Shown in pieces: positions 37,986 to 49,204 of a stretch of 64,000 bases of DNA. Origin of the DNA: Arthrobacter sp. MYb229 (lineage in GTDB: Bacteria; Actinomycetota; Actinomycetes; Actinomycetales; Micrococcaceae); contig NZ_PCPS01000004.1 of assembly GCF_002975405.1 (NCBI RefSeq), positions 1 to 64,000 on the forward strand, in the 5' to 3' direction. The position numbers and the translations under genes were made by a program. The stretch's first letter is position 1. The number at the start of each line of letters is the position of its first letter. The notes below the pieces were generated by a model, which was not told where the DNA came from, did no database searches, and saw only the letters and a program-made list of their open reading frames with translations.

Positions 37986-39758
37986 CTAGTCGGCGTCGAC
38001 GATCGAAGCGATCACGGCACCGGAGGACAATGATTCACCGGGGCTGACTTCCAAGCCCTCGATCTTGCCAGCGCGGTGCGCGGTGATTGGCTGCTCCATC
38101 TTCATCGCTTCGAGCACCACGATCAAGTCGCCTTCGGCTACGGTGTCACCGCTTTCAACGGCTACCTTCACGATGGTTCCCTGCATGGGCGAGCGCAGCT
38201 CGGCACTGTTTCCAGCGGCGGCCCCGGCCTTGCGGCCCGGCTTGCGCTTCTTCTTGGCAGCCTTGTCATTCGCGGCGGCAGATGCCGCGCCCAGCGAGGA
38301 GGGCAAGGTGACTTCCAAGCGCTTGCCGGCAACCTCAACGGTGACCGAGGTGCGTTCTGCAGCTTCTTCCGCCTCGACCTGTGGCATCGGGTGCGGCTCG
38401 ATGACGGTGGCGAATTCGGTTTCGATCCACCGGGTATGCACCGTAAAAGGCCCGGATTCGGGCACGAAGGCCGCATCGCTCATCACCGCGCGGTGGAATG
38501 GCAGCACCGTGGCCATGCCTTCGAGCTGGAATTCTTCCAGCGCGCGGCGGGCGCGGGCCGCGGCGATCTCACGGGTGGAACCGGTGACGATCAGCTTCGA
38601 GATCATCGAGTCAAAGTTGCCCGAGACGCTCTCGCCAGCTTCGACGCCGGAATCCACGCGCACTCCGGGGCCGGTAGGCAGAGTCATCTTGGTGATGGTG
38701 CCAGGGGTGGGGACGAATCCGCGTCCGGCGTCTTCGCCGTTGATGCGGAACTCGAAGGAGTGGCCGCGGACCTCGGGGTCCGTGTAGCCGAGCTCTTCTC
38801 CACGGGCGATGCGGAACTGCTCGCGGACCAGATCCAGCCCGGTGACCTCTTCGGAGACGGTGTGCTCCACCTGCAGGCGGGTGTTGACCTCGAGGAAGGA
38901 AATGACGCCATCCTGTCCCACGAGGAATTCGCAGGTGCCGGCACCGGTGTACTTCGCCTCGCGCAGGATCGCCTTGGAGGATTCGTAGAGCCGGGTGATC
39001 TGCGCTTCGCTCAGGAACGGAGCCGGGGCCTCCTCGACAAGCTTCTGATTGCGGCGCTGCAAGGAGCAGTCGCGAGTGGAGACCACCACGACGTTGCCCT
39101 GGATATCGGCCAGGCACTGGGTTTCCACGTGGCGCGGGGCATCCAGGAAGCGCTCGACGAAGCATTCTCCGCGGCCGAAGGCCGCGATGGCTTCACGCAC
39201 GGCGGACTCGTAGAGCTCGCCGATGTCTTCGCGGTTGCGCACCACCTTGATGCCGCGTCCGCCGCCGCCGTAGGCGGCCTTGATGGCCAGCGGCAGGCCG
39301 AACTCGTCGGCGAATGCGTAGACCTCTTCGGCCGAAGCGACCGGATCCTTGGTTCCCGGAACCAGCGGAGCGCCCACCTTCTCGGCGATATGGCGCGCCT
39401 TGACCTTGTCACCCAACTGGTCGATGGAATCCGGGCTGGGGCCGATCCAGGTCAGGCCCGCGTCGATAACGGCCTGGGCGAAATCGGCGTTCTCGGCCAG
39501 GAAGCCGTAGCCGGGGTGGATCGCGTCGGCGCCGGAACGCTGGGCGATATCCAGAATCTTCTCGATACGAAGGTAGGATTCGGCGGCGGTGGTGCCGCCC
39601 AGTGCGTAGGCTTCATCTGCCAGGCGCACGTGCAGCGCATCGCGGTCCGAGTCGGAGTAGATCGCAACCGATTCGATTCCTTCATCGCGTGCTGCACGGA
39701 TAATTCGCACTGCAATCTCGCCGCGGTTGGCGATTAGCACCTTCGTCAATGGATTCAT
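37986..39758 (-). CDS. Acyl-CoA carboxylase alpha subunit: biotin carboxylase fused to biotin carrier
   Basis: 590 aa. The biotin carboxylase part starts [23 protein letters not shown], has the ATP-grasp glycine loop [29 protein letters not shown], and [22 protein letters not shown] with catalytic residues. After an Ala/Lys-rich linker (about 500-520) comes the biotinyl domain with [12 protein letters not shown]; the biotin lysine is near residue 557. Same layout as mycobacterial AccA3. It works with the beta and epsilon subunits encoded at 54.2-56.0 kb and is biotinylated by BirA (57.1 kb). AAGG seven bases before the ATG. In related genomes accA3 lies close to maf; here an island separates them. 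Confidence 0.94.
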
Positions 39759-39877
39759 GGGTGAACCTTGTCTATAAAAAATTAGGGTTTCTCACCTAGG
39801 AGCCTATCGGCTTTGTGGGAAGTATATGTACTTATCCGGAAAATCTGGGGTGTTAGGCCGATATTTTTGGAGGGTTC

Positions 39878-40018
39878 CTACAAAAGTGATGAGCTAGCAC
39901 CACTATCATTTGAGCTATTCGAACTTGAATCCTCTTTCTCAGTGCTTGGAGTGTTTCTGTAGCTCTCCATCGGACGCTCATTCTTGAAGACAGCAAGCCC
40001 GGTGAAAGGCGCAACCAT
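39878..40018 (-). CDS. Possible small Ser-rich peptide or gene remnant
   Basis: 46 codons, from ATG 40018 to TAG 39878. Begins MVAPFTGLAVFKNERPMESY and ends in a Ser/Asn/Asp-rich tail. No ribosome site, and a stop codon lies just upstream in frame. The non-random composition suggests the tail of a lost gene or a short peptide. Weak evidence. Confidence 0.25.
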   Translation of the reverse strand: MVAPFTGLAVFKNERPMESYRNTPSTEKEDSSSNSSNDSGASSSLL

Positions 40019-40173
40019 GAATGTAATTTACCGATTAGCCAATATTTGGTAATTTATGCGGGATTTTCGATGAATCACAAATCTGACCTTACTTGGATCT
40101 AGTATGGTAATTCGTTCAGTGCACTGACTGGATGATTTAGTGCTTCCAAGATCTTGGCTCTAGATCGCGATGC

Positions 40174-40503
40174 TCAACCTTCGGAAACGTGACCGAGTGT
40201 GTTGGGAATAATTGACGACAGTTCAATGCGATTAATGAGATCCAGAGGCAGCTTGGAATATTGCGCCCCTTGTTCAGATTTCCATAATCTGTCTGACCGG
40301 ATAGATTCACGTACGTCAATAATTCCATGGCAGCGTACGCAACTAAAGTACTTACGGGGAAACGGTTCCCAGTAAATGGGGGCGGCGCTTCTTGAAATCG
40401 GGTCGGATGCTGCACGAACTAGTGCAAAGTCCTCCGATGGTGCGTTCCCTGAACGTAGCATCTGCGATTGCGGAGTTGCGCTCGATACCATTGTCGAGCC
40501 CAA
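40174..40503 (-). CDS. Possible small protein with CxxC motif, or remnant
   Basis: 109 codons. The C-terminal two-thirds look protein-like, with a CVRC pair and alternating charged/hydrophobic residues (YWEPFPRKYFSCVRCHGIID, then LPLDLINRIELSSIIPNTL). No Shine-Dalgarno, no family recognised. It overlaps other open frames in the same stretch, so the reading frame is uncertain. Confidence 0.25.
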   Translation of the reverse strand: MGSTMVSSATPQSQMLRSGNAPSEDFALVRAASDPISRSAAPIYWEPFPRKYFSCVRCHGIIDVRESIRSDRLWKSEQGAQYSKLPLDLINRIELSSIIPNTLGHVSEG

Positions 40504-40846
40504 CCATGCTTCAATATCTAATTGTCACTGAAGATTTTTACGAGATCCGAAGCGCAAATCGATGGTTGAATCCCAGGAATAGTGTTGCTTTGCTATCTTG
40601 TCAGCAATTGCAGTCGGTTGATGACGTTCGTTTTTCCGGTTCGAATCCGTCTAGGGTTAGCCGTTGAACACATGACTGGATTTTGCTCAGACCTGTCGAT
40701 AATCATCGAACTTGGGTTTTCTGTGGGCTGGAACAGTTAGAACAAGAATTGCCAGTTGAGTTTGAAGCATTTCTAAACCTGTCTGCGTAGCCAATTATGG
40801 GGATCAAGTAGAACTGTTTAATCGATACTCCTGACTACTATGAAGT

Positions 40847-43800
40847 GTGACCGAACGATCGGTGGTGTGCATCGGTGAGATGCAGTTAGGGGATGTTGTG
40901 GGACGGAGCAAAACGAGAAGGCGAAAACCTGTCCTCTCAGAGAAGATGAAAACTCATCTCAATGAACTGGCACGATCCTATAGTCGCTACGACGCAGACG
41001 AACTATGGACCGCGCTATTTGCGGCAGCTTCATCGCCTTCCGCACGTCACCGCGCCACTTCGATAGGTGCGGCGCTCGCTGCTAGCCTCCGAGTGAACTC
41101 GATTCCCAAGATGGATCAACGAGAGCCGCTCCCTGCTGTGCAAGAACTGGTTGACGAGGCAGCGGATTCCCTGGGTATTGGCGCTATGCACGAGGACTAC
41201 GTCCCGATGGACCCCACGAACGTCGCGACCGTTCGAGTCGGCGACGAATTGCTGCGTTATGTCCCTGGACTGGTCGAGAGGCCGATTGCTGATTTGTCTC
41301 GCGCATTGCGACTAGCCGCTGCGGTGGACCATCGGCTTATGTGGCGTTATAAGTTTGGCATCGCAAATGTCGTAAGAGTGGCCCTCAAATACGTGGACTT
41401 TTGTCTGCGGAGCCAGCTGGAAAGTTGGGAACCAGCTCCAGACATTAGATTGAGTGACGCGATCTCCATACCCGCCAACGAACTTACCGCTTCACGTAAG
41501 CTCCTTTCTCAGGATCCGCTTGATTCGCTACAACTTGAGCCTGCGGATTTGCTTGCACTTGAGTGGATGACGGCACCAGCATCCTCAGTTAAGTTCGACC
41601 ATGAGAGCCCGACTAGTCCCTTCGGACGGGCGCTGCGTTACCGGAACAAAGACGCCGATCAACATGATCGATGGTTGCCTCCGACCTATGTTCCAGAAGT
41701 TCTTGCTCACGCGGTGTCGGAGCTCGTCGGGGGTCTTAACCGCGACAAGCACGCTCGACGGGCGCTCCGAGCATCCTACATTGAAGCGACTCGACGTGCA
41801 CTTTGGCGTTTTTCGAAGACACTGATTGAAGCACCGCCCAGATCTCTCGACGAAATGCGCCCGCTGGCAGGAAGCGAAATCCATTGGCTAGTTCCTGTTG
41901 ACGGCGTAAAGTTCATCGCCGTCTCGATCCTCTACGCAGAAGACCTTCCTCAAGCGGGCTCACCCTCAATAGCGTGCGTAAGGCTGGCCGAGCAGATTCG
42001 TGCGCACAACCCGTCCAAGGGGCCAATTTCAACGAAACTGGCTGGCGACGGGAACATTACGTTGCTACCCGGCGCGACGGTAGTCCCACTCATTATTGTC
42101 GCTGGCACTTCTCATCTGATGTCTCCTCAGATGCCTGGTCAAGCAACTATGGCGTTGGAAGATCTGACGTGGATCGCAGAGACAGCAACAGCGGATGACG
42201 ATCTATATCGTTTTGCGCGTGATTTGAGCTCGCCGGATTTTCCTTCCAGTTTCGGCTGGGAGGCAATTAATTATTGGGAGCCTTGGAAAGCGAACGGCAA
42301 GACCTTCTTCAAAGGCGGGATCAGCCCTACGCATATGCATTTCGAGGCACATGCGGGCGATGCGGAGTGGGAAAGAGCCGTCGCGCTCTCATCACTGGAG
42401 TCGGCCCTATATGGGACGGGATTGCCAGCTTTGCGAAACGCAGAGATGGCAGAATCCTCATCTGGAAATGTCGCATCGGTAGCCTTTGATCGACCAGGTA
42501 GCAAGTACGACATCCGGCGCGGAACCCATCATGCTCCAGAAAGTGTCGCGTGGACCTTGGCCCTGACCACACCGCCAATTGCAATAGTCAGATCTGATCC
42601 CGATTGGACTAGCGGACAAGAGCATCAGTTCTTTTTCGATGTATGTGGAGGACTCGTATTTGCGTTCGTCTCGATTGGTGAGTCGTGGAGAAACGCGCAC
42701 AAGGAACTCGACGTTCCAGGATATCGACTGGGGCTACGGTCGATTGACGGACAAATTGGCCCGGCCGAGGGGGTAGTTGATTTTTCGCCCTCGATGAATA
42801 TCGTGGAAGGTGCAACGCGGGTAGCGACTTGGGGCTTCGATGTCGAGGGATTTGTGGAGGAAGCAGACGGGAACCCCCACGCAGCGAACATATTGACGGT
42901 TGCCTCTCTCGAGCAGCTTCTCGAATACGGTGGGAATGACTTTAGTATTGCTCAAGAGATCGGAAAAGAGTGGCTTACACGTGGTCCGTTCCTGATTCTC
43001 GAAACAAAGTTAGCCCGAACCAAACTGCAACGTTTGCCAAACCCTTGGGCGATAAACCAATCTGATCAGTCGGCAGCAACAGCGTCGTTTGCTCGCCGCT
43101 TACATTCTGCAGGAGTACAACCTGGTCGATATAGTGGGGAGGCTGCCAATTCTCTCGTCCAGGAGCATCTAGCTCCTACTGCACTCAAAGAACTCAATGA
43201 CCGTATCGCGATGCACGATACGCAGATGATCATTGATACAGGGATGGAACAGCTCAATCGGGTAGTTGACCACCTCCAGTACGAACAAGAAAACCTAACC
43301 CGAGTCGTGCGCAATTTGGTCACTGAATGGGACCCAATTACGCGAATGACGGATCTCGCTAGTGAATCCTTTGAAATACGGCAGAGCAACGAAATTATTG
43401 TAGAAGCCGCTCTGAGATCACAAAGTAATGCTGGCACAGATCATCCTGTCACGCATCAGAGCTGGAGCGCGTTACTGGCAGCCGCGGAAGCCTACCGTGC
43501 AATGACTTTGTTGAGCGAGGGACTCCACCACCGAGTAACTCGTACCACCATCGATATAAGTTCTACATATGAGCTCACATTCCAACACGACGAATGTGCG
43601 ACTGATGATTCTTGGGTATTGGAAAGCGAAGCTTTCAACACAGCGGCCGCCAGTATCCGGCTTGCGCCGACAATTGATGGTGACGTGCCTAGCGCAGATC
43701 GAGTCAATGATGCCATCGACCTCGCATTGCTGGAATCATTCGGAGTCTCGACCTTCGACTTATTCCTGACTCTGCAGGCACTAGCACAATGGGAGACCTT

Positions 43801-43852
43801 CGGAGAATATCAAAGCATCGCGTTCGCATCTGAAGAAGAGGCTGTTAGTTGA
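40847..43852 (+). CDS. Large unknown protein, upstream part of a stop-interrupted frame
   Basis: 1,001 codons to an in-frame TGA at 43850-43852. GTG start at 40847 has no good ribosome site; a GTG at 40898 with AGGGG six bases upstream may be the true start. I recognise no domain. Visible features: a basic N-terminus (GRSKTRRRKPVLSEKMK), a helical first quarter, a beta-rich centre (EIHWLVPVDGVKFIAVSILYAE; TLLPGATVVPLIIVAGTSHL), a Trp/Gly-rich stretch (FGWEAINYWEPWKANGKTFF), and a helical final 250 residues (LNRVVDHLQYEQENLTRVV). No membrane segments or ATPase motifs. After the TGA the same frame stays open for 271 more codons and ends in a nuclease domain, so the two parts were probably one protein. 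AT-richer than the flanks; insertion into the carboxylase/maf neighbourhood suggests horizontal transfer and a defence-type role, unproven. Confidence 0.75.
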   Translation: MTERSVVCIGEMQLGDVVGRSKTRRRKPVLSEKMKTHLNELARSYSRYDADELWTALFAAASSPSARHRATSIGAALAASLRVNSIPKMDQREPLPAVQELVDEAADSLGIGAMHEDYVPMDPTNVATVRVGDELLRYVPGLVERPIADLSRALRLAAAVDHRLMWRYKFGIANVVRVALKYVDFCLRSQLESWEPAPDIRLSDAISIPANELTASRKLLSQDPLDSLQLEPADLLALEWMTAPASSVKFDHESPTSPFGRALRYRNKDADQHDRWLPPTYVPEVLAHAVSELVGGLNRDKHARRALRASYIEATRRALWRFSKTLIEAPPRSLDEMRPLAGSEIHWLVPVDGVKFIAVSILYAEDLPQAGSPSIACVRLAEQIRAHNPSKGPISTKLAGDGNITLLPGATVVPLIIVAGTSHLMSPQMPGQATMALEDLTWIAETATADDDLYRFARDLSSPDFPSSFGWEAINYWEPWKANGKTFFKGGISPTHMHFEAHAGDAEWERAVALSSLESALYGTGLPALRNAEMAESSSGNVASVAFDRPGSKYDIRRGTHHAPESVAWTLALTTPPIAIVRSDPDWTSGQEHQFFFDVCGGLVFAFVSIGESWRNAHKELDVPGYRLGLRSIDGQIGPAEGVVDFSPSMNIVEGATRVATWGFDVEGFVEEADGNPHAANILTVASLEQLLEYGGNDFSIAQEIGKEWLTRGPFLILETKLARTKLQRLPNPWAINQSDQSAATASFARRLHSAGVQPGRYSGEAANSLVQEHLAPTALKELNDRIAMHDTQMIIDTGMEQLNRVVDHLQYEQENLTRVVRNLVTEWDPITRMTDLASESFEIRQSNEIIVEAALRSQSNAGTDHPVTHQSWSALLAAAEAYRAMTLLSEGLHHRVTRTTIDISSTYELTFQHDECATDDSWVLESEAFNTAAASIRLAPTIDGDVPSADRVNDAIDLALLESFGVSTFDLFLTLQALAQWETFGEYQSIAFASEEEAVS

Positions 43853-44668
43853 GTATGTAAAGTAGACGGTGATCCCAACCAAGAAAAGCGTCTTCGCATT
43901 CAACATGCAATTCAAATGCTTATAATTTCCTCCGATGTACTCCGCTCCAGTAGTTGGAAACCTTGGCAAACTCGAACCCGCAGGCATCGGCTTCTCGTCC
44001 AACCGTTGGTGAGACGTTCAGATGGCGGGATCTTGATCGCTCCGCAGTATTTACTGACGACATTAAGCGTATACAACAACCACCTGACTCAAGGCGTCCT
44101 CCCGTGGACAGGAGGGGTTCCTGAATTAGTGAATAAAGCCCTGGCCGAGAGGCGCGCGAAGCGAAACTTGGCATTCGAACACGGGCTCCAACAGCAACTG
44201 CATGAAATTGGTTTCTATACGATCGCGCGTGTAAAGCCTGGTGACCATGCGCGGCTGGGTGTCCCGATACTCACGACGGAGATAGATCTTGTATGTGGCC
44301 GTGTCGGGGACCCGAACATCTGGCTGATCGAGGCCAAAGATCCGGCTACAGTCCACGGATTCGCAGAAACCGCACGTCAACTGCGGTCTTTCTACCTTGA
44401 CTCAGAAGTCAAGGGACGTATTAAACCGTGTTATGCGACTCAGCTTTCACGTAAGGAAGCAGAACTTAAGCCATACATTGAAAAGATAGCAGAAAAGCTC
44501 GGTGTAGGCTCGGCGCCTGAACAAGGAGATTTCGTCCTTCAAACACGGTTCGTAACTCGCCGGCTAACCCCCGCCAGTTTCATGATCTCACGGCCCTACG
44601 ACGTGCTCACCGCAACCGAATTCCTAAATGAACTTGGACAGGTTGGTGGGCATTCGAACGAGAAATAA
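43853..44668 (+). CDS. PD-(D/E)XK nuclease-like domain, downstream part of the interrupted frame
   Basis: 271 codons in the same frame as the upstream 1,001-codon part, beginning straight after its TGA. The first in-frame ATG is 43916 (250 aa) but has no ribosome site, and codons before it already read as sensible protein (KVDGDPNQEKRLRIQHAIQ). Counting from that ATG, an active site is visible: Glu90 (AFEHG), Asp124 (TTEIDLVCGR) and Glu139-x-Lys141 (IWLIEAKD), the E...D...ExK order of PD-(D/E)XK nucleases. The C-terminus ends after SRPYDVLTATEFLNEL. Whether it is made depends on readthrough, an internal start or strain repair of the TGA; otherwise the gene is a recent pseudogene. Confidence 0.72.
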   Translation, partial: VCKVDGDPNQEKRLRIQHAIQMLIISSDVLRSSSWKPWQTRTRRHRLLVQPLVRRSDGGILIAPQYLLTTLSVYNNHLTQGVLPWTGGVPELVNKALAERRAKRNLAFEHGLQQQLHEIGFYTIARVKPGDHARLGVPILTTEIDLVCGRVGDPNIWLIEAKDPATVHGFAETARQLRSFYLDSEVKGRIKPCYATQLSRKEAELKPYIEKIAEKLGVGSAPEQGDFVLQTRFVTRRLTPASFMISRPYDVLTATEFLNELGQVGGHSNEK

Positions 44669-45077
44669 CAGGAGCTAACGTGGATTTCCGACATGTAGGG
44701 TACTTTTTCAATTAGGAGTGCCTTTAGTTCGTAGAGAATGCAATATTCGATGAAGTCCTCGCTTCCTCAATCCCAGAAGGTTCGCGAAATTGGGCTACCC
44801 ATCAAATCAGGTCATTGAATCTGTTGATGCTTCACACCTTGTGACTTTGTGTGTGAGTGAACCCCTCAGGCAGACGGGAGAAAATTCGTGGATTCGAAAT
44901 CAAAGATCGAGAATTAGTATTGAAAAACTTCCCTATTGTGTCCGCACCGATTGTGGGAATGTCGGTTAACACACAACTGAAATCACGGCAATGCACCGTT
45001 CCGACTGAACGAGACTTGATCCGAATCGTTTCGATCGGGCAATTCGACCAACGAATCCGCAGGGGGATAGTTAAACA
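44669..45077. other. AT-richer intergenic region, right edge of the island
   Basis: About 410 bases with only a weak 80-codon open frame (44857-45099) that has no ribosome site and runs into the maf terminator. I see no RNA gene, IS end or flanking direct repeat matching the left edge. Confidence 0.5.
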
Positions 45078-45118
45078 CCGCGTCCCTGTCCGAGAATAAA
45101 TCTTGGACAGGGACGCGG
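45078..45118 (-). terminator. Terminator after maf
   Basis: Perfect 14-bp stem CCGCGTCCCTGTCC/GGACAGGGACGCGG with a 13-nt loop, 10 bases beyond the maf stop on the minus strand; T-tract is short (TGTTTAA). Confidence 0.75.
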
Positions 45119-45128
45119 CGGGAGATGG

Positions 45129-45767
45129 CTACTTCCAGAGGCTCACAATCGGGATTCCGGCTTCCGCCAGCAGCTCGCGCAGCACGAAGATATCCAGACC
45201 CACCACGTTTTGGAAGTTCCCTTCGATGGACTCGATGAAGGCCGAGGCCAAGCCATCGATGGTGAATGCGCCGGCACAGGGCAGCGGTTCACCGCTGGCC
45301 ACGTAGGCTTCGATTTCCTCGTCGCTGACCTCGGCGAAGTGCACGGTGGTCGAGGAGACACGTCCCCTCGCGCCTTGCGGGGCGTCGGTGTCGACCAGCC
45401 AATGCCCGGAATGCAGGATGCCGGTGGCGCCACTGAGCTGCTGCCAGCGTTCGCGGGCCACCTCGGCGGTATAGGGCTTGCCATAGGCTACGCCATCGAG
45501 CTCGAAGACGGAGTCGCACCCCAGCACCACTGTGCCCTCGGGGTGCTCACCTGCGGCGACGTTCTCGGCCTTGGCCCGGGCCAGGAGCAGCGCGGTTGCT
45601 TCCGGGCTTTGCGGACCGCCGGCGCTCACGGCGGCTGCCAGCACGGCATCCTCGTCAACGCGCGAGACTTGGGTTCCGAAGGCCAGCCCGGCATCGGACA
45701 ATAACTTCTGCCGCCCAGCGGAGGCGGAGGCCAGCAGCAGCCGGGCGCTCTTTTTGCTAGCGGTCAT
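45129..45767 (-). CDS. maf: Maf family nucleotide pyrophosphatase
   Basis: 212 aa. Hydrolyses non-canonical or excess NTPs. Motifs: LLLASASAGRQKLLSDAGLAF (residues 9-29, catalytic SxxR loop), ARAKAENVA, VLGCDSVFELDG (catalytic Asp), YGKPYTAEVARERWQQLSG, and GCAGAFTIDGL-like CAGAFTIDGLASAFIESIEG near the end. ATG overlaps the stop of the MMPL gene by four bases (ATGA), so it is translated with tetR-MMPL. In mycobacteria maf lies beside the accA3/accD5/accE5 genes, as here apart from inserted genes. Confidence 0.94.
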   Translation of the reverse strand: MTASKKSARLLLASASAGRQKLLSDAGLAFGTQVSRVDEDAVLAAAVSAGGPQSPEATALLLARAKAENVAAGEHPEGTVVLGCDSVFELDGVAYGKPYTAEVARERWQQLSGATGILHSGHWLVDTDAPQGARGRVSSTTVHFAEVSDEEIEAYVASGEPLPCAGAFTIDGLASAFIESIEGNFQNVVGLDIFVLRELLAEAGIPIVSLWK

Positions 45768-48700
45768 ACGGTTACCTCTTCCTTGGCCGAAGCTTCGCCG
45801 AGCGGCCGCTCGGCCTTGCGGTCCAGCATCTCATTGAGCTTTGCGCCCTCGACATCCACGTCTGGAAGGATCTTATCCAGCCATTTCGGCAGGTACCAAG
45901 CCTTGTCGCCCAGCAGGTGCATAATCGCTGGAATCAGCGTCATGCGTACCACGAAGGCATCAAAGAGCACCCCGGTGGCCAAGGCGAAGCCCAACGGCCG
46001 AATCATTGACAGGTGGGAGAAGATGAATCCGGCAAATACCGCGATCATGATCAACGCGGCCGCGGTCACCACCGGGGCGGCCATGGAGAATCCCGAGCGC
46101 ACCGCGTCCCTGGCCGACAATCCGTGGGCGTAGTGCTCACGCATCGCCGATACCAGGAACACCTGATAGTCCATGGCCAAACCGAAGAGGATGCCGGTGA
46201 GCAGGATCGGCAGGAAGCTCAGCAGCGGGCCGGGGACATTGACGTCGAAGACCGAACCCATCCAGCCGAACTGATAGACCATGACGCTGGCCCCGAAGGC
46301 CGCAGCCAGCGAAAGCAGGAAGCCACCGGTTGCCAACAGCGGAACCACTACCGATCGGAAGACCAGCAAGAGCAGGATCAGCGAGAGCCCCACCACGATA
46401 GCCAGGTACGGAGGCAAGGCGGAGGTCACCTTCTCCGAGACATCGATCTGCGCTGCGACCTGGCCGGTCACCGCGATCTTGGCGCCCGTGGCATCGTTGA
46501 TCCTCTGGGCATCGTCGCGCAGCTCGTGCACCAGCGCTTCGGTGGCGGCGGAGGCGGGGCCATCTGCCGGGATCACCTGGATCGCGGACAGCGACCTGTC
46601 TTCGGTCATGGTCACCGGGATGGCGGCGACCACGCCGTCGTATTCACGGAGCATGTCTGCGATATCCAATGACTTGGATTCGGCCTGCCGCTCGGATAGG
46701 TCTGCGGGAAGGTCCGCGAGGACCAGCAGCGGGCCATTGTAGCCGGCGCCGAACTTGTCGCTGGTCTGCTGATAGGCCTGGAAGGCCTGCGAGTCGGCGG
46801 CTTCGGCGCTGCCATCGGGCAAGGCGGTACGCATCTGCGATACCGGGATCGAAATGGCGCCGAGCACCACGACCACCAGCAGCGACACGGGAATCGCGAT
46901 CTTGGTGACCAGGCGGACCCAGCGCGCCGAGACAGGTTCCTTGGCCACCGGCTTGTCCGCCTTTTTCCGGGCACGCTTGGACACCAGCTTGGAGCCGGCC
47001 ATGGCCAGCAGCGCGGGGAGCAGCGTGATGTTCAGCAACACCGAGCAGAGCACGGTAAAGGCCGCGGAGAGTCCGAGCACCGTCAAGAACGGCAGACCCG
47101 GAACCGCGAGGGCGGACAGCGCGATGATGACCGTCAGCCCGGCGAAGACTACGGCATTGCCGCTGGTACCCACCGCGCGGGCGATCGATTCGCCGACCTC
47201 CATGCCGGAGAGCAACTGGGTGCGGTGGCGGTGAATGATGAACAGCGCGTAGTCGATTCCCACCGCGAGTCCCAGCATCAAAGCCAATGCGGGGGTAATC
47301 GAGGCCATGGTGAACATCGAGGAGAAGGCAAGCGTGGTGCCCACCCCGGCGCCAACACCCAGCAGGGCGAGCAAGAGCGGCAAGCCGGCGGCGATCAGGG
47401 TGCCGAGCATGACCAGCAGGACCACGGCGGCGATCACCACGCCGATGATTTCGGCGGTGCCGAAGACCTCCGAAATGTCCTGCAGGATTTCCTTGGAGAA
47501 GAGCACCTCGACACCGGTGGACTGCGGCCCGCTGGCGATTGCGGTGATGGCTTCACGATCCGAGGCGGTCAATGCGTCGGTCGCGATGCGGAAACTGACT
47601 TGGGAGACGGCGGTGGAGCCATCTTCGGAGACGAAACGCATGTCCCCGCTGGCGCCTACCTGGCGGGAGGCGAACTCAAGTTCGGCTCGTCCGCTCTCGA
47701 GGTCTTTTTCTCCCTTGGCGATGTCTTTTTCGCCCTCTTCGAGCTCTTTGGTCTTTTCCTTGATCGTCGTTTCGGACTCGCGCAGCTGTTTCTCTGCGTC
47801 CGCCAGTTGCGCTTTGCCGGCTACGAAGGCAGCCTTTTGCTTGTCGAATTCTGCCTGTCCGGCGTTGAGCTCGGCGCGGCCGGATTCAAGTTCGGCACGC
47901 GCCTGCGCCAGCTTTGACTTGTTCGCATCGATTTCTTGCTTGCCCGAGGCAAGCTGTGCCTTGGCCTGGTCAAGCTGCTTTTTGGCGGAGGCCAGTTCGC
48001 CGCGGCTAGCCTCGAGCTCCTGGCGGCCTTCGGCGGCCTGGGTGGCCCCGGCATCCAATTCCTTGCGCGCGGCATCCAGCTGCTTCAGGCCCGCCTCGGC
48101 CTGGTCGATCTGCTTCAGCGCGGCGCTGGCCTGAGCCTTGCCCTCGGTGGCCTGCAGCTTGGCGGCATTCAGTTCGGCGAGGCCGCCCTGCAGTGCCGTC
48201 AGCTTTTCGGTGTACTCGCGAATCAGGGCTTCGTCACCCTCGGCTTCGGCCTGTTTGAGCGCCTGTTCGACTCCGGGGATCTGGGATTCCAGTTCCGAGA
48301 TTTGCGGTTCAATGGTCTTCAGGCCCTCTTCGGCCTTCGCCAGGCCCTCGGTGGCCTGCTCTTTGCCGGCAACTAGTTCCTTGTCAAACTGGCTGCGGGA
48401 CTTGCCGTCCAGAAGCTTGTCCAGCCCCGCCCGGTATTCTTCCTCGCCTGCGCTCAGCTGCGCCTCTGCCTGATCGAGCTGCTTTTCTCCGGCTTCGAAC
48501 TGGCTCCGACCGGACTGGTACTTTTCGAATCCCGCATTGTATTCGGCGAGGCCCGCCTTGTATTTCTTTTCGCCGTCGTTCAGCTGCGCCTGCCCGCTGT
48601 TCAGCTGGGTTTCACCGGCGCGTAGCTCATTCCAACCGGCGGCCAGCTTCTTTTCGGCCGCGGCGATCTGCGGCTCGGCGTCCTCGATTTCCTTGGTGCC

Positions 48701-49204
48701 ATCGAAAAGTTCGGACCAGCCCTCGGTGATCTTCTTTTGGCCGTCCGCGAGCTGTACCTTGCCGTTAGCTACCTGTTCCTTGGCATCGTCGAGTTCCTTC
48801 TGCCCGTCCACCAGTTCTTGTTGGGCGTTGTCCAGCTCGGGCTTGGCGTCATCAAGCTGTTTCTGCAGTTCGAAGGGGCTCATGGCCTCGACGACCTGCG
48901 GATGCAAGGCCAGCTGATCCAGGGAGTCTTGGATCGCCGATTTCTGGTCCGCGTTCAACTCGCGGTTTGAACCTTCACGGAAGACGATGGTGCCCTGTCC
49001 GCCGGCAAGATCGGGGAGTTCTTCCTTCATCCGGTCCATGGTGCGCTGGGTTTCGGTGCCCGGCAGGGTGAAGGTGTTCGACAGCTGCCCCATGAACAGG
49101 CTGGCACAGACGCCGATGGCGATAAACGCCGCAATCCACATGGAGAGCATGCGGAAACGGTGCCTATGGGCCCACGAGGCGAGGCGGTAAAGGAACGTAG
49201 CCAT
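45764..49204 (-). CDS. MMPL/RND-family membrane protein with a very long extracytoplasmic coiled coil
   Basis: 1,146 aa. First helix at about 20-40, then a roughly 400-residue insertion (about 110-515) of repeated, Gly-punctuated helical units (L.DGQKEL.DA, L.AGE.QL.SGQ, L.SGKQEIDAN) before the typical MMPL core. The core has helices 2-6 with GLAVGIDYALFIIHRHR, a second extracytoplasmic domain, and helices 7-12 with GLAMDYQVFLVSAMREHY. The two GxxxDYxxF motifs carry the proton-relay Asp-Tyr pairs of MMPL transporters. The coiled-coil repeats resemble YhgE/Pip-type proteins. Probably exports lipids or hydrophobic drugs. The TetR gene ends 3 bases upstream, so it is likely the regulator. Confidence 0.9.
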   Translation of the reverse strand: MATFLYRLASWAHRHRFRMLSMWIAAFIAIGVCASLFMGQLSNTFTLPGTETQRTMDRMKEELPDLAGGQGTIVFREGSNRELNADQKSAIQDSLDQLALHPQVVEAMSPFELQKQLDDAKPELDNAQQELVDGQKELDDAKEQVANGKVQLADGQKKITEGWSELFDGTKEIEDAEPQIAAAEKKLAAGWNELRAGETQLNSGQAQLNDGEKKYKAGLAEYNAGFEKYQSGRSQFEAGEKQLDQAEAQLSAGEEEYRAGLDKLLDGKSRSQFDKELVAGKEQATEGLAKAEEGLKTIEPQISELESQIPGVEQALKQAEAEGDEALIREYTEKLTALQGGLAELNAAKLQATEGKAQASAALKQIDQAEAGLKQLDAARKELDAGATQAAEGRQELEASRGELASAKKQLDQAKAQLASGKQEIDANKSKLAQARAELESGRAELNAGQAEFDKQKAAFVAGKAQLADAEKQLRESETTIKEKTKELEEGEKDIAKGEKDLESGRAELEFASRQVGASGDMRFVSEDGSTAVSQVSFRIATDALTASDREAITAIASGPQSTGVEVLFSKEILQDISEVFGTAEIIGVVIAAVVLLVMLGTLIAAGLPLLLALLGVGAGVGTTLAFSSMFTMASITPALALMLGLAVGIDYALFIIHRHRTQLLSGMEVGESIARAVGTSGNAVVFAGLTVIIALSALAVPGLPFLTVLGLSAAFTVLCSVLLNITLLPALLAMAGSKLVSKRARKKADKPVAKEPVSARWVRLVTKIAIPVSLLVVVVLGAISIPVSQMRTALPDGSAEAADSQAFQAYQQTSDKFGAGYNGPLLVLADLPADLSERQAESKSLDIADMLREYDGVVAAIPVTMTEDRSLSAIQVIPADGPASAATEALVHELRDDAQRINDATGAKIAVTGQVAAQIDVSEKVTSALPPYLAIVVGLSLILLLLVFRSVVVPLLATGGFLLSLAAAFGASVMVYQFGWMGSVFDVNVPGPLLSFLPILLTGILFGLAMDYQVFLVSAMREHYAHGLSARDAVRSGFSMAAPVVTAAALIMIAVFAGFIFSHLSMIRPLGFALATGVLFDAFVVRMTLIPAIMHLLGDKAWYLPKWLDKILPDVDVEGAKLNEMLDRKAERPLGEASAKEEVTV
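47660..48870 (-). repeat. Degenerate internal repeats encoding the MMPL coiled coil
   Basis: About 1.2 kb coding for many divergent copies of a roughly 7-11-residue unit with pattern L-x-x-G/A-x-x-x-L. At DNA level the copies share words such as GAGCTG and CAGCTG but are not identical. Copy number could vary between strains. Confidence 0.7.

Follow-up and report, generated by a model that had tools for sequence, protein, structure and literature searches.

A probable anti-phage nuclease gene, distantly related to Upx, with a nonsense codon at a conserved tryptophan in Arthrobacter sp. MYb229

The window, a stretch of 64,000 nucleotides of Arthrobacter sp. MYb229 (contig NZ_PCPS01000004.1, positions 1 to 64,000 of the forward strand), contained an Upx-like gene with one in-frame TGA (40898-44668, plus strand). 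It is quite likely an acquired single-protein phage-defence nuclease gene, distantly related to Upx and recently inactivated in this genome when a conserved tryptophan codon became a stop. As proposed, the locus would be a single gene, gained by horizontal transfer and encoding, in about 1,255 residues, a stand-alone anti-phage nuclease of an actinobacterial clade distantly related to Upx. Its large N-terminal body presumably senses infection and restrains the C-terminal PD-(D/E)XK nuclease until triggered, and the released nuclease would then destroy nucleic acid. The nonsense change at the conserved tryptophan would end translation just ahead of the nuclease; the product would most likely be a 984-residue protein without nuclease, and the defence would be dead.

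The window sequence had a single plus-strand frame from 40847 to 44668, broken only by the TGA at 43850-43852, with 1,001 codons before it (40847-43849), 271 codons after it (43853-44665) and a terminal TAA (44666-44668). The first-pass annotation had described the same frame and lone stop. A stretch of 1,273 codons with at most one stop had a chance probability of about 1e-22 given the base composition of the region, and neither a second stop nor a frameshift was seen in the gene besides the TGA. The frame was indeed open from the annotated position, where its first codon was GTG 40847, but GTG 40898 is probably the start: AGGGG, a possible ribosome site (40888-40892), lay 5 bases upstream, and relatives began with M/V-G-[RKQ]-[SN]-K at that place in an alignment read by eye. 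A start at GTG 40898 leaves an N-terminal body of 984 codons (40898-43849) ahead of the TGA.

Forty-four loci were fetched through the nuclease end, 39 from genome contigs (with a profile of six C-terminal parts) and five from plasmid records; proteins with the body only would escape that search. In 35 of the 44 loci, a frame of 1,188 codons or more was open across the TGA site without a break, a count in which one frame (L033) ran to its contig end and some loci were near-copies of one another. The other nine were broken or remnants (L005, L023, L026, L027, L042, L046, L049, L050, L053). The codon at the TGA column was TGG in all 12 close loci (L015-L026), three of which were near-identical (L020, L021, L026) and two broken elsewhere (L023, L026); ten were open through both halves. 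In the alignment of 32 single-chain members, the residue at the TGA column was Trp in 28 and Leu in four. The earlier reading of one large protein cut by a single change was thus borne out; it had offered CGA or TGG as the original codon, and TGG was upheld and CGA was not. As the stop stood where nearly all relatives have Trp, this genome probably makes no DNA-cutting end, and the defence is probably disarmed.

Upx-like hypothetical proteins of Microbacterium and Leucobacter (L015-L018) had an identity to the window gene of 67-69% over the first half and 72-75% over the second half, with both halves in one frame and, unlike the window gene, without the stop. The C-terminal 271 codons were homologous to the end of the single-chain relatives. 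Hypothetical proteins of Streptomyces plasmids (L006-L009) were also single chains, 1,214-1,267 codons long, in which the order was the same and the TGA column held Trp; their identity to the window gene was about 20% over the first half and 24-28% over the second half. The upstream half, searched in 297 genomes of the order, matched only in its own genome and in one other (G069), which also had the nuclease. The C-terminal profile matched at E <= 1e-8 in 6 of 394 genomes of the class, the own one included, so the family is rare.

Of the alternatives raised earlier, selenocysteine, and stop readthrough as far as it would need a dedicated tRNA, were not supported by the tRNA genes. A tRNA-Sec over the cut-off was absent from the genome (best score 42.1 against 47 bits, at a tRNA-Gly site), and selenocysteine at the TGA was rejected on this ground and on the TGG of the relatives. 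ARAGORN gave the tRNA-Trp the anticodon CCA and found a UCA anticodon in none of the 63 tRNA matches of the genome, and a dedicated suppressor was therefore rejected. A selenoprotein or a programmed readthrough site is recognised by a stop kept in relatives together with a tRNA reading it; here, the 12 close loci all had TGG. Conserved programmed recoding was considered because one close locus (L023, Microbacterium suaedae) also broke 21 to 37 codons before the TGA site. It was ruled out by the ten open close loci, by an indel in a G run between L023 and L022, and by a C-run indel, close to the end of L026, that sets it apart from L020. Leakage through a real TGA, with misreading by tRNA-Trp (CCA) giving a little full-length nuclease, perhaps at a useful low dose, is very unlikely: near-cognate reading of UGA would restore tryptophan, the residue lost here, and the half after the stop was conserved, but no relative had a stop at that column, neither a UCA anticodon nor a tRNA-Sec over the cut-off was available, and the marks of a regulated site were absent.

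The first ATG after the TGA (43916) was not preceded by a ribosome site in the window, as the first-pass annotation had stated, nor by eye in the relatives. The 63 bases from the TGA to this ATG, earlier taken to read as protein, corresponded to homologous coding sequence in the single-frame relatives. A regulated internal start, a further alternative of the annotation, was rejected on these two grounds. The position was ATG at a fixed offset in 4 of 9 close relatives; with a one-residue insertion allowed, the column was Met in seven and Leu in two. Judged from the alignment, Met 43916 is a residue of the long chain. It is hardly credible that the locus makes a 984-residue body and, by initiation at ATG 43916, the nuclease as a second, separate protein. 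Such a start in the downstream frame would leave the nuclease whole and would agree with the Met of most close relatives at that column, but it is opposed by the absent ribosome site, by the Leu of the remaining two and by the coding character of the preceding 63 bases where the relatives have one frame.

With a single stop, no further frame damage and a downstream half still well conserved, the break looked recent. The pN to the four closest relatives was 0.167-0.185 after the stop against 0.180-0.194 before it. Of the 110 columns after the stop that were invariant in nine relatives, the window protein departed at 2, and of the 327 before the stop, at 27 (8.3%; each of the nine relatives, 0.3-3.2%). 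This 8.3% could mean older decay, or may come from the long lone branch of the window protein, which alone among the proteins compared had a long branch and no near neighbour. Between the window gene and its relatives dS was saturated, which weakened the dN/dS test of decay and put recent relaxation beyond its reach. Probably, then, the TGA change arose not long ago, or is an error, or is made tolerable by readthrough. An error of sequencing or assembly, the cell's gene being intact, is rather unlikely: the TGA was one base away from the codon of the relatives, the downstream half was still conserved and the assembly was a draft of 23 contigs, but the window sequence was otherwise clean at the gene, and base substitutions are the rarer kind of error in draft assemblies.

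Nonsense inactivation, the preferred reading, would take away the whole nuclease. The domain (44123-44638, with limits from the model of the relative L015, of Microbacterium sp. Leaf151) had E (44177), D (44285) and E-x-K (44330, 44336) invariant in all six sequences of alignment A1, window included, and the same columns were invariant in all 32 relatives of alignment A3. An E...D...ExK nuclease site had been annotated in the downstream part and was thereby corroborated; by their sequences, the window gene and its relatives carry the conserved E, D and E-x-K residues of PD-(D/E)XK nucleases. In the L015 model, the TGA-aligned tryptophan was residue 924, within a helix, and the helix entering the nuclease started at 1015, so that the stop would remove the nuclease wholly.

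Upx was reportedly described by Gao et al. in 2020. Pfam returned nothing useful for either half of the window gene, and family scans of the upstream half gave no match; among the 32 relatives, one had a Pfam match to DUF1918 (E 0.0046), with otherwise nothing useful. The second half matched Upx weakly in PADLOC (PDLC02221, E 4.2e-5) and in NCBIfam (NF042954, E 0.0044, 14.2 bits with a cut-off of 1900), and the first half did not match. The intact relative L015 scored 21.6 bits with NF042954, below the curated 1900-bit cut-off. Upx models were matched at E <= 0.01 by 9 of the 32 relatives, the first of them solely at the nuclease end. Among PDB sequences, the profile built from the 32 relatives matched a single chain at E <= 1, 9wuf_A, which has 1,272 residues. 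The match (E 2.1e-17) fell into two collinear parts: 596-924 with residues 635-965 of 9wuf, in the later part of the body, and 1085-1192 with 1122-1234. Two pieces of the 9wuf sequence scored as Upx (E 6e-184 and 4e-68).

The AlphaFold model of L015 (residues 64-1263; 28 sequences; mean pLDDT 80.5; pTM 0.77) had 9wuf ('Cryo-EM structure of Upx') as its sole PDB match at E <= 0.001 (E 1e-25). The TM score was 0.56 by either length, with 14% identity and an rmsd of 10; the two chains, of 1,200 and 1,212, were aligned with gaps over 1,330 columns. So large an rmsd suggests a different placement of domains in the model and in 9wuf. The Upx-like proteins agreed with Upx (PDLC02221, NF042954, 9wuf) in their about equal length, a body followed by a C-terminal PD-(D/E)XK nuclease, the collinear profile match and the fold match, and differed in the 14% identity of the L015 fold alignment, in scores far below the family cut-offs and, for the window copy, in being broken. 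With the Upx models so far below cut-off, they are placed as a distant actinobacterial Upx-like clade and not as Upx proper. The absence of a recognised domain upstream, as annotated, held for the family scans but not for the profile of the relatives, which matched the 9wuf body. The suggestion of an undescribed defence protein stood insofar as the gene fell outside Upx proper, and gave way insofar as Upx, of solved structure, was distant kin by profile and predicted fold.

A table in PMC10855318 places Upx under nucleic acid degradation, citing Gao et al. 2020, and the account of Pseudomonas PAGI-1 islands in PMC12629846 has Upx in one hotspot. The literature search gave no paper on the mechanism of Upx among the matches listed, and no match for the word 9WUF. 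CMoRE, presented with a GIY-YIG nuclease in PMC12923530, was set aside as a different system.

The window gene stood alone, flanked by two housekeeping genes on the minus strand, accBC at 37986-39758 and maf at 45129-45767. These two genes were adjacent in all 17 sisters within the genus, with 987 to 5,364 bases between them, and the accBC-maf stretches fetched from the sisters held no match to either half of the window gene. When the 17 genomes were searched whole with DNA, three gave short matches, all at the maf end, and the others gave none. The GC3 of the window gene was 0.52 against 0.80 in three neighbours. From the low GC3 and the absence from the accBC-maf gap of the sisters, the gene was probably acquired horizontally. 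The upstream half had no match in plasmids, nor in viral contigs (six exact peptide patterns), and the intact relative L015 had none in the phage collection.

The accBC-maf gap (39759-45128 in the window) was variable across the genus within the range given above. At least 12 of the 17 sisters had in it a gene of 171-185 codons starting MQLNPYGEYAV or MHLNPYGEYAV (CGNR-type by eye), and the others had different genes. An inverted repeat with 18-base arms (94%) lay between the convergent window gene and maf (45078-45118) and may be a terminator. Beside maf, a gene of 1,146 codons (45764-49204, minus) coded for a protein, MMPL/YhgE-like by eye, in which apparent membrane segments were separated by long, charged repetitive stretches; one sister (G310) had a counterpart of 1,167 codons beside maf.

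A selected sample of the genes neighbouring relatives was scanned, 20 of them with Pfam and 10 with PADLOC. Defence-like neighbours were part of Avs3a (L015, with a related counterpart in L016), KAP/PifA and DRT4 (L016), an ApeA-type HEPN (L017), nSTAND3 (L024), a weak Avs4-like match (L025), and an Eco57I methylase next to a relaxase gene (L028); a NACHT match at L019 was below its cut-off. Neighbours were not defence-like at L018 (amidohydrolase, FecCD transporter, recombinase) and L027 (Ig/carboxypeptidase-regulatory protein), and some at L015, L019, L024, L029 and L030 had no family match. Among the closest relatives, L015, L016 and L017 adjoined defence genes, whereas the window gene and, as far as scanned, L018 did not. 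A frame of 716-729 codons preceded the Upx-like gene in L015 (109-2256) and L016 (70-2259); in L015 its match to the Avs3a model was confined to the C-terminal third (1375-2070 of 2090). It may be a gene in its own right, or continue a longer one that the locus end truncates. Near-copies at one site aside, no partner gene was shared across the 20 loci compared and the window stretch, so the Upx-like protein probably acts alone.

Eight frame-breaking changes were placed in the family, the window stop and seven frameshifts in six loci, a count that leaves out a degraded remnant (L027) and two fragments (L050, L053). Relative to the Trp column, the frameshifts were at about -610 and +7 codons in L005, which had two, about -36 to -21 in L023, with a run of eight Gs at the break, -83 to -65 in L046, -523 in L042, +152 in L049 and +225 in L026. 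Four of the eight changes fell between -83 and +7 codons, just ahead of the nuclease; the binomial value of 0.008 for a 140-codon stretch was calculated with the data already known and does not count as a test. Homopolymer errors of draft assemblies may contribute to these breaks. That selection, and not chance, has repeatedly disconnected the nuclease end of Upx-like proteins is a very doubtful proposition; if true, cells may disarm a costly nuclease yet retain the body, or may use homopolymer tracts, such as the eight Gs of one copy, for reversible switching.

The relatives add a divergent actinobacterial branch to Upx, which the PADLOC and NCBIfam defence models scanned hardly detect, and their alignment shows which residues of the body and of the nuclease stay fixed. 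If the assembly is right, Arthrobacter sp. MYb229 would have lost a defence gene recently, in a family with frequent broken copies, and such frequent breaks bear on the cost of keeping stand-alone nucleases.
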